From Prevotella sp. (GTDB lineage: Bacteria > Bacteroidota > Bacteroidia > Bacteroidales > Bacteroidaceae), in contig JAFPVC010000062.1 in assembly GCA_017413085.1 (NCBI GenBank), positions 1 through 64,000 on the forward strand: a stretch of 64,000 nt of DNA, written 5' to 3'. The notes under the pieces were generated by a model that was given only the letters and a program-made list of their open reading frames with translations, made no database searches and was not told the origin of the DNA. The translations under genes were made by a program, and so were the position numbers. Position 1 is the first letter of the stretch; every line of letters begins with the position of its first letter. Shown piece after piece: positions 38 through 34,335 of this stretch.

Positions 38-155
38 AGGTGGGCAAGCTACTTACATCGCACCGCTACAACCAAGTACCTTTGCTACGTTCCCGTCCTG
101 GAGGATTCCGAGGGAGCTGGTCGTGCAAGACTTGCCCATGTAACATACCTACGTT
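38..155 (-). ncRNA. ffs: Small signal recognition particle RNA (4.5S-like)
   Basis: The minus strand carries the SRP domain IV signature GGACGGGAACGTAGCA followed by AAGGTA, with the flanking helix strands GTCTTGCACGACCAG and CTTGGTTGTAGCGGTGC. A terminal stem pairs GGGCAAG (131-137) with CTTGCCC (42-48). This RNA scaffolds Ffh in co-translational membrane targeting. Ends are approximate: the 5' end is set by the promoter box at 171-178 and the 3' end by the tRNA immediately downstream. Confidence 0.85.
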
Positions 156-18061: not shown

Positions 18062-19539
18062 ACACTTTAATGAAGACGAAGACGAAAACGAAGATGAAGG
18101 CAACAACGAATTACGCGAATTTCACGGATTGCATAAAATATGCCCTGTTTCTTCTCCTTGTTACTATGTCTGTTAGCATAAGTGCCGCAGACAAGGGTGA
18201 CATTGAAGGAATCAAGCACGCCGTGCGCGTGCTCAAGGGCATAGACACGAACATGACGGTGGAGACCGCCGTCGCCACGCTGAGAACTGCTGCCGAGCGT
18301 GACACCGTGCCTTATGCCATGAATTCTCTCGGTCTTGTATATATGGCAGGCATAGGTGTGGAGAAAGACACCACTCTGGCCGTGGCATGGTTGGAACGTG
18401 CCGCCGATAACGGCTTTCTGGAGGCCAACCACAACCTCGGAATGCTATACAAGGATGCACCCTGCGGACACGGGCAGGACTTCGCCAAGGCCTTTGGCTA
18501 CTACAAGCGGGGTGCTGATGCCGGCTCTGTAATGTGTATGTATGATGCCGGCTACATGCTCTACAAGGGACTGGGCTGTCAGCAGGACTACGCCAAGGCG
18601 GCGGAAATGTTCCAAAGCGGTGCCGACAAGGATCACAGCCCCTGCCTGTATATGCTGGGGTTGTGCTACCGCAACGGCTATGGCACAGAGCAGGACGACG
18701 AACGCGCCATGTTCTTCCTGAAGCGTGCCGCCGCATTAGGATACAGCGCCGCCATCGAGGAGGTACGTCGTCCCCAGGCGGAGAACTGGATGCATGAGGT
18801 GTTCCTTGCTTGCGACACCTGCGGCAGCATACCACAGCGGATGCCCGACATACAGTCTGACATAAACGACATGACCATGCTCTCTGGCAGTTATCAGGGA
18901 TTCATTGTAATGTACGACTGGAGCGGACGCTACATCCTCGGTGAGAAACCTGTAACGCTCTCCATGGTCAATGACGGCAAGAACATGAGCGGTACGCTTA
19001 CGCTCGCTGCTGACACCGTGCCGTTCCGTGCATCGGTCATGGCTGATGGAAGGGTGTGCTTCACTGACGGCGGTGTGGAACTCAACGAACGCTACACCGT
19101 AGGTAGGAAGGTGCCGTACAGGATGGATACTGCGGCACTTGACGTATGGCAGGACAGGATTGCTGGAAGACTGGCACTCTACTCGCTGAAGCATAACGAG
19201 CCGGAGCGCCCGATGTATATCGAACTGGTACGCGGAAACGCTGTTGCTGGCAATGAGACAGATGAAAACGCGCGTTACACCCGTGTCACCGCCACACCGA
19301 ATCCTTTTGCCATACAGTTTGACGTTACGTTTGAACTGCAGGAGTCGTGCGGAGCGAAGCTAAAACTGTATGATGTGTTCGGCAAGCTGGCTTACAACTG
19401 TGACTTTGGAAAACTCAAAGCAGGGAAACACACGGAAACAATCATTCCGAACGTTATTGACGGTACGTATGTGCTTAACGTCACAGCCGGAAGCCGTGTA
19501 CTTCGCACAATAATTGTTAAAAAAGGAGGTGCGCAGTGA
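18055..19539 (+). CDS. Sel1-repeat protein with type IX secretion sorting tail
   Basis: A 494-residue exported protein. After a signal peptide (hydrophobic core YALFLLLVTMSVSISA) come Sel1/TPR-like repeats (about residues 80-230), seen as AVAWLERAADNGFLEANHNLGMLYKD and similar units, then a beta-rich region and a C-terminal domain of about 80 residues with the T9SS type A pattern (TPNPF, KLYDVFGKLAY, GTYVLNV, final TIIVKKG). It is therefore predicted to cross the outer membrane through the Por system. The n-region of its signal peptide is encoded by an ACGAATT-type repeat. ATGs at 18070 and 18091 are alternative starts. Confidence 0.78.
   Translation: MVNTLMKTKTKTKMKATTNYANFTDCIKYALFLLLVTMSVSISAADKGDIEGIKHAVRVLKGIDTNMTVETAVATLRTAAERDTVPYAMNSLGLVYMAGIGVEKDTTLAVAWLERAADNGFLEANHNLGMLYKDAPCGHGQDFAKAFGYYKRGADAGSVMCMYDAGYMLYKGLGCQQDYAKAAEMFQSGADKDHSPCLYMLGLCYRNGYGTEQDDERAMFFLKRAAALGYSAAIEEVRRPQAENWMHEVFLACDTCGSIPQRMPDIQSDINDMTMLSGSYQGFIVMYDWSGRYILGEKPVTLSMVNDGKNMSGTLTLAADTVPFRASVMADGRVCFTDGGVELNERYTVGRKVPYRMDTAALDVWQDRIAGRLALYSLKHNEPERPMYIELVRGNAVAGNETDENARYTRVTATPNPFAIQFDVTFELQESCGAKLKLYDVFGKLAYNCDFGKLKAGKHTETIIPNVIDGTYVLNVTAGSRVLRTIIVKKGGAQ
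18103..18132 (+). repeat. ACGAATT-type repeat arm in the signal-peptide region
   Basis: ACGAATTACGCGAATTTCAC resembles the arms of the elements at 32382 and 32965. Here it is translated (NYANFTD) between the basic start and the hydrophobic core of the export signal. Confidence 0.5.
19521..19529 (+). promoter_or_regulatory. Canonical Shine-Dalgarno before a GTG start
   Basis: AAAAGGAGGT ends 5-6 nt before the GTG at 19536. A full anti-16S match is unusual for Bacteroidetes. It also encodes the Lys-Gly-Gly at the end of the T9SS tail, so it may be coincidental; either way it supports the GTG start of the next gene, which overlaps the stop (GTGA). Confidence 0.5.
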
Positions 19540-32381: not shown

Positions 32382-32577
32382 GAACACGAATTACTCGAAT
32401 TGCACGAATTATCCTATGTAGATGACAGTTCAGGTCAGAACTGCTTTACTGCAGTAAAGGTTGTTATTTCATCAAGCATCTTGAAAGCTAGCTTTCAGAA
32501 GTGCTTCTTGAAAATACCAACTTATCATCTACATTAATTCTTTTCTTATTCGTTAGATTTGTGAGATTCGTGTTCGT
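32382..32577. repeat. Structured repeat element R1, downstream of the GxxExxY gene
   Basis: The ends are inverted arms built from ~9-nt units: GAACACGAATTACTCGAATT on the left and GAGATTCGTGTTCG on the right. The core (32416-32534) is closed by ATGTAGATGA/TCATCTACAT and contains three hairpins: CAGTTC/GAACTG, CTTTACTG/CAGTAAAG and TGAAAGC/GCTTTCA nested in AAGCA/TGCTT. It is a direct repeat of R2 at 32965-33163, and identity continues into GTTTATAA beyond the right end, which supplies the GxxExxY stop codon. Confidence 0.85.
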
Positions 32578-32949
32578 TTATAATACTTTTCGCTCGTATT
32601 CTAATTCGTCAGGACATCCGAAATTAAACAAAAGTCCCAACTTATAGTTGGTGGCATGAAGATAATTGTAAACCTGAGACCGGTGAGCATCCTCTAACGC
32701 GCTTACCGCCTTCAGTTCTACGATTATCTTCCCAAAACAGACAAAGTCTGCTTTGTAGGTTTGCTTAAGTTCAATGCCATCATACTGAATCTTCAGTTCT
32801 TTCTCTCGCTCATACGGAATATTGCGTCTCTGGAATTCGATTTCCAAAGCCTCTTGATAGACTGCTTCTAAAAATCCGTGCCCAAGGCCATTATATACCT
32901 TGAACGCTGCTCCCATAATCTTATACGCCTCATCCTTATAAACTATCAT
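32578..32949 (-). CDS. GxxExxY family protein
   Basis: A 123-residue protein of the GxxExxY family: name motif GLGHGFLEAVYQEAL, then IPYEREKELKIQYDG, KADFVCFGKIIVELKAVSAL (Asp-(X)n-Glu-x-Lys, a PD-(D/E)XK-nuclease-like core) and QVYNYLHATNYKLGLLFNFG. The nuclease-like fold is inferred from these residues; no activity is established for the family. Start is the ATG giving MIVYKDEAYK; a GTG 21 nt upstream lies in R2. It sits between direct repeats R1 and R2 within the polysaccharide operon, in the same orientation. Confidence 0.9.
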   Translation of the reverse strand: MIVYKDEAYKIMGAAFKVYNGLGHGFLEAVYQEALEIEFQRRNIPYEREKELKIQYDGIELKQTYKADFVCFGKIIVELKAVSALEDAHRSQVYNYLHATNYKLGLLFNFGCPDELEYERKVL

Positions 32950-32964
32950 GTTCGATTTGTTTTT

Positions 32965-33163
32965 GAACACGAATTACTCAAATTGTACGAATCTTTCAAT
33001 GTAGATGACAGTTCTGAGTAGAACTGCTTTATTGACCAATAAAGGTTGATATTTCATGAAGCATCTTGGAAAATTTGTTTTCAGAAGTGCTCCTTGTAAA
33101 TAATAACATATCATCTACATAAAATCAATTTGTTATTCGGTTGATTCGTGTTATTCGTGTTCG
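32965..33163. repeat. Structured repeat element R2, upstream of the GxxExxY gene
   Basis: Second copy of R1, about 583 bp away, same orientation. The core (32999-33120) keeps ATGTAGATGA/TCATCTACAT and the hairpin CAGTTCT/AGAACTG. The second hairpin is CTTTATTG/CAATAAAG, where R1 has CTTTACTG/CAGTAAAG: a C-G pair replaced by T-A, which preserves pairing. The third hairpin is GAAAA/TTTTC inside AGCA/TGCT. Its right end runs into the sugar kinase gene and provides that gene's last codons and stop. Confidence 0.85.
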
Positions 33164-34335
33164 TTTATAAATCTCGCACCGTCATCACTCTTACAGAAAT
33201 ACACCTTGAAGGTATTCTTATACTGTGGGAACTTGGAGAGGTATTTCTCTGTGATTTCCTTTTCTATCTGTTTCTTCTTCGTGGGATCAACGAGGGCAAT
33301 GCAGGCACCTTTGAAGCCAGCCCCAGAGAAACGACCGCCATAGATGCCGTCAGTGGTAAGCATGGCTTCGTAGATGGCTATCAGCTCAGGACTGCCACAC
33401 TCATAGTTGTGTATACTACTCTCACATGAAGCCTTGACAAGACTACCGAACCACTCCAGATTGCCCGACTCCCATGCAGTGATACCCTCACGCACACGTT
33501 TGTGCTCACCATAGAAATGCTCTGCCCTTCGAGCAAAGCGTGGTGGCATCTTGTCGCGGTTGCGTTTGTACATACTCTCTGGCACATCACGCAGGAAAGT
33601 CTTGTCATGTGTCTTCAGTGGCACATTCTCGTATGCCTGTACCGTCCATGCTGCCGTCTTACATTCTGTTACACGGAGGTTATAGTCAGATGATATCAGA
33701 CTGCGTGTCAGCCCACTGAAGAATATACCCAGTTCAAAGTCCGGCATTTCAGCAGGCTTGGGAATAACACGATATTCGTCACTCTCACAGTCCAGCATCA
33801 GCAGATGGTTCTTCTTTCCCAATGCTATACATGCCTGGTCAAGCAGACCATTGTTCAGTCCGATATACTCTCGTTCAGCCTCAGAAGCAATCTTCACCAC
33901 CTCAAATGGAGCCAACGTAATATTGTTCGCTTTCGCAAATGCCATCACATAAGCTATCAGCACCGCAGCAGAGCTACTGAGCCCACCCACAGGCAGCGAA
34001 CCTTGCACTACACCTGTGATGCCACGAGTCAATTTAAAGCGCTTACGGAGAGCATACTTTGCACCACGAGCATAGTCGCCCCACATATAGTCACGCACCT
34101 GTGATGGCTTGTCAATCTCAAAATCAACAATTCCTTCAAAGGTTCTCGACTCCAAATGCACATGGCTATCAGGCCACTTATTCGTGTCATTCGTGCGATT
34201 CGTGTTCGTTACATTAAACCACAAATCAACTCCTTTATCTATAGCAAAACCTGTCACCAGTCCATGCTGGTGATCCACGTGTGCTCCTAATGGGCAAACA
34301 CGATATGGGCTAAAAATATGATATTGGTAATCCAT
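33151..34335 (-). CDS. GHMP sugar kinase, galactokinase/galacturonokinase-like
   Basis: A 394-residue GHMP kinase. SPYRVCPLGAHVDHQHG is the sugar-binding signature, PVGGLSSSAAVLIAY the ATP-binding loop, and GGRFSGAGFKGACIAL motif 3. The CPLGAHVDHQ form resembles plant galacturonokinase more than classical galactokinase (GEHTDY), so galacturonate-1-phosphate is a plausible product. Residues near 45-55 (NTNRTNDTNK) are encoded by an inserted repeat arm, and the C-terminal NEHE-stop comes from R2. The downstream nucleotidyltransferase would use its product. Confidence 0.86.
   Translation of the reverse strand: MDYQYHIFSPYRVCPLGAHVDHQHGLVTGFAIDKGVDLWFNVTNTNRTNDTNKWPDSHVHLESRTFEGIVDFEIDKPSQVRDYMWGDYARGAKYALRKRFKLTRGITGVVQGSLPVGGLSSSAAVLIAYVMAFAKANNITLAPFEVVKIASEAEREYIGLNNGLLDQACIALGKKNHLLMLDCESDEYRVIPKPAEMPDFELGIFFSGLTRSLISSDYNLRVTECKTAAWTVQAYENVPLKTHDKTFLRDVPESMYKRNRDKMPPRFARRAEHFYGEHKRVREGITAWESGNLEWFGSLVKASCESSIHNYECGSPELIAIYEAMLTTDGIYGGRFSGAGFKGACIALVDPTKKKQIEKEITEKYLSKFPQYKNTFKVYFCKSDDGARFINEHE
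34180..34211 (-). repeat. ATTCGTG-type repeat arm inside the sugar kinase gene
   Basis: The plus strand reads ATTCGTGTCATTCGTGCGAT followed by TCGTGTTCG, the same ~9-nt periodic sequence as the ends of R1 and R2. It is in frame and encodes NTNRTNDTN in a loop shortly after the sugar-binding motif. Confidence 0.7.

Follow-up and report, generated by a model that had tools for sequence, protein, structure and literature searches.

GxxExxY nuclease-like genes framed by iterated inverted arms in Prevotella: candidate selfish elements resembling REPtrons

The window cassette and its protein

The 64,000-nucleotide (nt) stretch of Prevotella sp. DNA analysed here (assembly GCA_017413085.1, contig JAFPVC010000062.1, positions 1 to 64,000; hereafter the window) carries on its minus strand a gene of the GxxExxY family that is flanked on either side by a copy of a structured repeat, R1 and R2. 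The cassette lies between a galactokinase-like gene and a nucleotidyltransferase gene. A preliminary description, made from the letters of the window alone, held that R1 and R2 are direct repeats bracketing a single GxxExxY gene and that both end in inverted, roughly 9-nt periodic units of the ACGAATT type; both statements hold, with the coordinates unchanged and with 82% identity between the repeats across 211 query positions (BLAST). The parts of the cassette are as follows.

32382..32577, plus strand: R1, downstream of the GxxExxY gene; palindromic and gene-less, with a structured core between an arm and its inverted counterpart
32382..32410, plus strand: R1 left arm, three 9-nt words
32416..32534, plus strand: R1 core, a four-way junction formed by a closing stem and three hairpins that abut
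32548..32575, minus strand: R1 right arm, inverted, two bases from the gene's stop codon (pairs I3 and I4)
32578..32970, minus strand: GxxExxY gene (TIGR04256; PF13366, PDDEXK_3), ATG start probably at 32949
32965..33163, plus strand: R2, the second palindromic element, upstream of the GxxExxY gene
32965..32993, plus strand: R2 left arm, three words
32999..33120, plus strand: R2 core, structured
33135..33162, minus strand: R2 right arm, inverted (pairs I2 and I7)

Each repeat starts with a left arm of three 9-nt words and ends with the inverted right arm, the core between them measuring about 120 nt; the inverted pairs I2-I4 span 28 nt and are 75-79% complementary. The only open reading frame (ORF) of at least 60 amino acids (aa) between R1 and R2 is the one matching PF13366. 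It begins with a GTG at its outer limit, and as this codon lies within an R2 arm, the ATG at 32949 is the more natural start.

The window protein is a member of TIGR04256 (144.4 bits, cut-off 35) and PF13366 (140 bits). Among 24 aligned proteins D75 and K87 are invariant and E85 is nearly so; in the alignments (A3, A4) minus-strand members were fetched without their first codon, while the window protein is whole. The predicted fold matches Cas4, and the closest solved fold among the matches listed is 4ic1. By fold prediction and active-site conservation, GxxExxY is a small nuclease of the Cas4/RecB PD-(D/E)XK type with a putative D...ExK active site. PADLOC returned only a weak Cas4b match (E 0.00089). 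T7 endonuclease I appeared merely as a weak profile hit (E 0.39-0.51), and the identity of a junction resolvase is not claimed. At an E-value of 1e-5 the protein had no match in phages and the cassette none in plasmids.

Arms, junctions and dispersed copies

The genome from which the window derives contains four GxxExxY genes, each framed by repeats whose sequences differ from gene to gene. The generality of this framing was assessed by comparing up to 400 nt upstream with up to 400 nt downstream of each gene, with the 99th percentile of mismatched pairs as the threshold. Among 89 genes from the best-scoring loci of the genus (116 less 20 duplicates and 7 at contig edges), 54 have an inverted match, 32 a direct match and 71 one or the other, compared with four inverted and two direct matches in 500 random windows of the same loci. 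A wide set of 77 genes (84 less 7) was drawn from 80 loci of one subfamily with the pattern GPGLLE, whose record titles name Bacteroidota, Cyanobacteria, Acidobacteria, Planctomycetota, Chloroflexi, Proteobacteria and others; here the inverted match passes the 99th percentile in 32 and the 95th in 44. An arm is typically made up of about three words of 8-10 nt each. Identity at a lag of 9 nt amounts to 0.447 in the genus arms and 0.295 after shuffling, and lags of 8-10 nt are prominent in the wide set. The words, read by eye (ACGAATT, CACAGAT, CGCAGAG, GACATAA, CGTAAAT and others), differ between loci, and the similarity of arms follows the identity of the proteins (r 0.445, n 87, reached in 0 of 2000 Mantel permutations) in loci picked for an arm score of at least 18.5 and at least 95 residues, a choice that biases within-locus similarity upward.

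Some GxxExxY genes stand in other repeat settings. Two in the window's own genome (L008, G000:C13:2210-5551; L010, G000:C56:139293-142634) lie in tandem arrays of units of about 100-120 nt (AATTCGTGGT, GACAAC words), and L069 (G125:C68) holds a tandem pair of GxxExxY genes in which a 564-nt stretch is repeated with 97% identity at an offset of 495 nt.

Empty sites, as would be expected of a cassette that is perhaps mobile, are found in relatives: none of 19 has a GxxExxY match in the stretch fetched around the place that the cassette occupies in the window. Thirteen of the 19 have the transferase on the same side; among these, 11 have a gap of at most about 110 nt and two have other inserts. 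The two inserts at this galK site are a DUF559-like ORF (L174, 948-1439) and an ORF resembling the protein of the 23S rRNA intervening sequence (IVS; L177, 950-1500), each with its own repeats and each named by likeness.

A second junction, between two oxidoreductase genes that we take to be korA and korB, holds another GxxExxY copy of the window's own genome (G000:C58:5793-6294), and its relatives (L284-L332) were retrieved with the joined flanks as the query. Read 52 times in 51 genomes, this kor junction has a gap of at most 38 nt in 21 cases and a GxxExxY gene in 10, the other fillings including PF05635-type genes (three), a DUF559 gene (one) and, by eye, gene-less palindromes (five). The kor junction is a hotspot that is filled by several unrelated repeat-framed small genes or by gene-less palindromes. 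All ten GxxExxY genes run in the direction of the kor genes, and their proteins fall within one clade of 15 rows (support 100/99) in which they do not form a clade of their own (four changes on the tree, the genomic place of the other five rows being unchecked). In 84% of comparisons, the own right arm at this junction beats the right arms of other loci.

The IVS-type genes found with iterated repeats on either side (for example AATTGATAATTGACAATTG in L177 and AGTTAAGAATTAAGAA in L308) are those at L177:950-1500, L308, L319, L321 and L342:1000-1460, assigned to PF05635 by a scan for L308 and by likeness for the other four; L308, L319 and L321 lie at the kor junction. Repeats of CCCCTCGGGGGC or CCCTAAACAGGGGG surround the DUF559 loci L174 and L324 (PF04480 by a scan for L324, by likeness for L174) and the locus L316 at these two junctions, L316 being a kor junction with similar repeats and without a clear ORF.

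Traces of movement are seen in genome G177, where two paralogous sites share a gene block that is 99.5% identical over 379 nt between adjoining flanks of 85-93% identity, and the gene has therefore probably moved or been converted recently. One of these sites has plain arms and the other an arm-core-arm' unit on each side, so that arms are exchangeable for whole palindromes.

The words of the window cassette also occur without a GxxExxY gene. Its genome contains 43 ACGAATT-type triplets compared with one for the reversed pattern. A GxxExxY gene is found within 1 kb of four of the 43, and several belong to short palindromes in which two triplets enclose a small core, with 74-83 nt from one triplet to the other. 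Across 60 genomes of the genus, the count ranges from 0 to 103. The GxxExxY clade of the kor junction (at least 58% identity) is present in 10 of the 60, in G032 as a broken gene. The median count is 37.5 in these ten and 0 in the other 50 (p 3.5e-6), and ten or more triplets are reached by 9 of the 10 versus 7 of the 50 (p 6.8e-6). The 22 genomes that lack a GxxExxY match in this clade comparison have at most eight triplets each; two of them (G007, G023) hold a weaker family match. Two solo triplets and one further feature lie elsewhere in the window.

34177..34210, minus strand: solo triplet of the ACGAATT type, read in frame as TNTNRTNDTN within the galactokinase-like gene
18106..18130, plus strand: solo ACGAATT-type triplet
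38..144, minus strand: Bacteroidales small signal recognition particle (SRP) RNA (Rfam, 114.5 bits)

The first triplet adds about 11 residues to the galactokinase-like protein; none was seen there in the 19 relatives, whose loop at this position is variable. The SRP RNA is the only match of the window in Rfam 15 at the gathering score, and the cassette has none.

The structured core

The core was described at the outset as a stretch of about 120 nt with a closing stem and three internal hairpins, and this is what is found. The closing stem, ATGTAGATGA/TCATCTACAT, encloses the three hairpins, and because stem and hairpins abut save for three bases, the core forms a four-way junction; the base of hairpin 3 extends as GTTG.TATTT/AAATA.CAAC. 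The fold goes far beyond chance: R1 as RNA reaches -65.9 kcal/mol against -36.6 +/- 3.9 for shuffles (z -7.5, 0 of 200 as good), its opposite strand has a z of -5.5, and R2 as single-stranded DNA a z of -7.6 (again 0 of 200). The compensatory pair change in hairpin 2 and the differing loop of hairpin 1, both pointed out from R1 and R2 alone, are present.

A covariance model built from five cores and run on 150 genomes of the genus, with up to 23 candidates scored per genome, recovered at least 13 distinct cores in at least seven genomes. The 13 cores contain 97 compensatory cells compared with a shuffled mean of 33. In the model-fitted alignment 92.6% of cells pair, changes on both sides occur in 26 of 46 pairs, and the covariation score is 0.442 versus 0.163 for shuffles (0 of 500) and 0.063-0.097 with the partners slid; the number of further pair types is the sole measure of five that is not extreme (reached by 46 of 500 shuffles). 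A plain MAFFT alignment shows compensatory changes in 19 of 40 predicted pairs. Base pairing in the core is under selection, and the paired positions vary with compensation. G-U cells number 17 and A-C cells 9 in the plain alignment, 24 and 13 in the fitted one; since G-U is not clearly commoner, covariation does not tell whether the folded molecule is RNA or DNA. Of the suggestion that selection acts on pairing in RNA or single-stranded DNA, the pairing thus stands, with RNA not clearly favoured.

Where its surroundings can be judged, the core clusters by GxxExxY genes. With one core at a contig end (G036) left aside, 10 of 12 lie within about 750 nt of such a gene (two in the window, three in G049, three in G137, two in G177), whereas for those in G110 and G113 no such gene was found in the 1.5 kb retrieved to either side. 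A single gene stands between two cores in the window, G137 and G177, and in five of six cases the core upstream runs antisense to the gene. The reverse is seldom the case: GxxExxY matches occur in 95 of the 150 genomes and the core in at least seven, most fetched GxxExxY loci have no core match, and in the window's own genome only one gene of four has it. The core is therefore not the defining partner of the gene. Overall, arms are the general feature and the core is a minor part; R1 and R2 belong with the locus-specific iterated arms, as palindromes built arm-core-arm.

At one locus (L068, G027:C36:398684) a GxxExxY gene has on both sides a different 198-nt direct repeat, which also folds into a closing stem with three hairpins and to which the core model gives merely 21 and 16 bits. 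No core match at an E-value of 1 or better was found in 80 GxxExxY loci from many phyla. A core model (R2) run on 295 genomes of the order, with up to 12 candidates scored per genome, gave at least four matches beyond the own genome (31.7-40.8 bits), which are counted as chance; by eye they are hairpin-rich, some lie beside tRNA-like sequence (tRNAs were not scanned), and the stretches fetched around them contain no GxxExxY gene.

Known systems and possible routes of spread

Several known systems invite comparison. Passages in PMC3116915 and PMC6006769 describe REPtrons and REPIN-RAYT systems (repetitive extragenic palindromes and their associated tyrosine transposases) as a gene framed by palindromic repeats, with dispersed gene-less inverted pairs, an own repeat family for each enzyme and a patchy distribution. 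The GxxExxY gene is likewise flanked by cognate palindromes that are also dispersed in the genome. The REPtron enzyme, however, is a HuH Y1 transposase and GxxExxY a PD-(D/E)XK nuclease; the GxxExxY repeats are arms of about three 8-10-nt words, and the GxxExxY gene itself is also found at new sites. No Y1 enzyme is encoded between the repeats, so the cassette is not a REPtron as defined, and as there is no transposase of any kind between R1 and R2, it is not a classical insertion sequence either. With other Cas4/RecB-type nucleases (4ic1), the protein has its predicted fold and the D...ExK motif in common; it differs in its size of about 130 aa. The 23S rRNA IVS is short, carries a single small gene and has inverted ends. 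The GxxExxY element shares this layout, but its gene belongs to PF13366 instead of PF05635 and lies between two protein genes instead of inside a 23S rRNA gene. The BrickBuilt miniature inverted-repeat transposable elements of Porphyromonas gingivalis are also from Bacteroidales and have inverted ends and internal repeats; in the descriptions consulted, no GxxExxY link is seen. In the literature searched (open papers, no preprints), GxxExxY is mentioned incidentally only, PDDEXK_3 and five arm sequences were not found, and for TIGR04256/PF13366 we found neither flanking arms nor dispersed partner repeats described. Within that literature no system of this form turned up, in line with what was first supposed; by enzyme and repeat architecture the elements appear categorically new, with a logic analogous to that of REP/RAYT.

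We give about an even chance to the reading that the window holds one copy of a widespread kind of selfish element, in which a REPtron-like logic is run by a different enzyme. Under this reading, the GxxExxY nuclease would most likely recognise, bind and cut the repeated words of the arms on either side of its own gene. The same words end the gene-less palindromes scattered in the genome, which would be its non-autonomous partners, R1 and R2 included. The arm-core-arm' palindromes could extrude as hairpins or cruciforms (in R1 and R2 as the four-way junction), which the nuclease would open by a cut at the arms or next to them. Palindromes, and occasionally the gene as well, would then spread when the break is repaired from another copy or when the hairpin set free inserts elsewhere, often in an intergenic gap. 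The reading builds on the arms with their periodicity, their match across the gene and their correlation with the protein, on the dispersed gene-less copies, on the relatives that lack the insert, on the selected base pairs of the core, and on the protein's predicted fold and conserved active site.

A number of observations weigh against this reading. The threshold for an inverted match is failed by 35 of the 89 genus genes and 45 of the 77 wide genes, and neither set is a random draw, the genus loci being the best-scoring ones and the wide set a single subfamily. Common descent alone would give a correlation between arms and proteins and may explain part of it. At the kor junction, the own right arm is the best partner of the left arm in only two of ten loci. 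The association between the kor clade and triplet counts, with its p-values, is inflated because related species share both gene and repeats; one genome with the clade (G038) holds a single triplet, and the seven genomes that reach ten or more triplets without the clade include the highest count of all (103, in G058). Among 17 of the 19 GxxExxY matches in those seven genomes, the loci that were fetched, no run of ACGAATT words was found, although L411 has a single such word in each arm. With slightly longer flanks, 14 of the same 17 loci have inverted arms of other words (score >18.3); six of the 17 were already present in the earlier locus set under other names. Inspection by eye of the flanks displayed, without a systematic test, revealed no target-site duplication. 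Finally, the similar framing of PF05635 and DUF559 genes at the same junctions suggests a shared machinery other than GxxExxY.

This last point underlies the main rival, in which arms and cores are moved in trans by another enzyme (a Y1 transposase, another transposase or a reverse transcriptase) and GxxExxY is one of several small passenger genes picked up by such palindromes. We regard it as unlikely, though it accounts for the unrelated genes found at both the kor and the galK junctions. It also fits the Y1_Tnp matches in 9 of 11 genomes searched, all seven core-bearing ones included, and the seven triplet-rich genomes without a matching GxxExxY gene among the fetched loci. The Y1_Tnp match of the window's own genome, however, is weak (23.9 bits, cut-off 23). 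The best inverted flank match, viewed at 14 of 18 Y1 loci, is at none of them an iterated arm of these words, and the core model gave over the 18 loci one weak match (20 bits), by eye in coding sequence. A common mobiliser would, moreover, keep the arms alike between loci, whereas they track the nearby protein.

Some Y1 transposase genes (L341, L343, L353, L356) have flanking inverted repeats of their own, unrelated to the arms (e.g. TGCACAGCGGAACCGACCCTATTGTGCA in L356); at two further Y1 loci (L339, L340) strong adjacent direct repeats are present, which were left unread.

A second, distinctly improbable alternative is a parasite at the RNA level akin to the IVS, in which the inverted arms pair in the transcript, the small gene is looped out and trimmed by the host, and the element, tolerated between co-transcribed genes, spreads by rare recombination. 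The uniform direction of the ten kor-junction genes is consistent with it, as is the presence of PF05635, the family of IVS-encoded proteins, and the 23S rRNA IVS is described in PMC4990558 as a selfish element with an ORF, which is counted in its favour. The balance of G-U and A-C cells (17 vs 9) does not favour RNA, however, the better-folding core strand in the window is antisense to the gene, and both the dispersed gene-less copies and the correlation with the protein would be left unexplained.

Still less probable in our view is a functional RNA (guide, retron-like or defence RNA) that partners the nuclease. Strong covariation beside a Cas4-like nuclease gene and the mostly antisense upstream core would suit such an RNA; the rarity of the core relative to the gene, the absence of an Rfam match, the small G-U excess and the different element of similar shape at L068 argue against it. 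That the arms are ordinary repeats, generated by chance or drift and without any tie to the gene, can be set aside almost completely: the words are low in complexity and AT-rich and the loops variable, but random windows (4 of 500) and mismatched pairs (1%) fall far from 54 of 89 genes, and none of 2000 Mantel permutations and none of 500 shuffles of the covariation reached the observed values.

Returning to the REPtron-like reading, a bolder version of it is conceivable, if less likely than not. GxxExxY elements could constitute a separate, transposase-free class of mobile DNA, in which private words of 8-10 nt, repeated in inverted arms, are read by a Cas4-like nuclease that also copies arm-core-arm' units via hairpin or four-way-junction intermediates, with one word per lineage and possibly several independent word-enzyme pairs per genome; the logic may extend to PF05635 and DUF559 genes. 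If every GxxExxY copy serves a private repeat family as its enzyme, the purpose of this protein family, which is of unknown role and present in many phyla, would be explained, and so would many of the repeats dispersed in Bacteroidota and perhaps in other groups. The family would furthermore offer a natural series of small word-specific nucleases, each with its words legible in its own flanks, and the REP/RAYT way of life would have arisen a second time, independently and around an enzyme other than a transposase.
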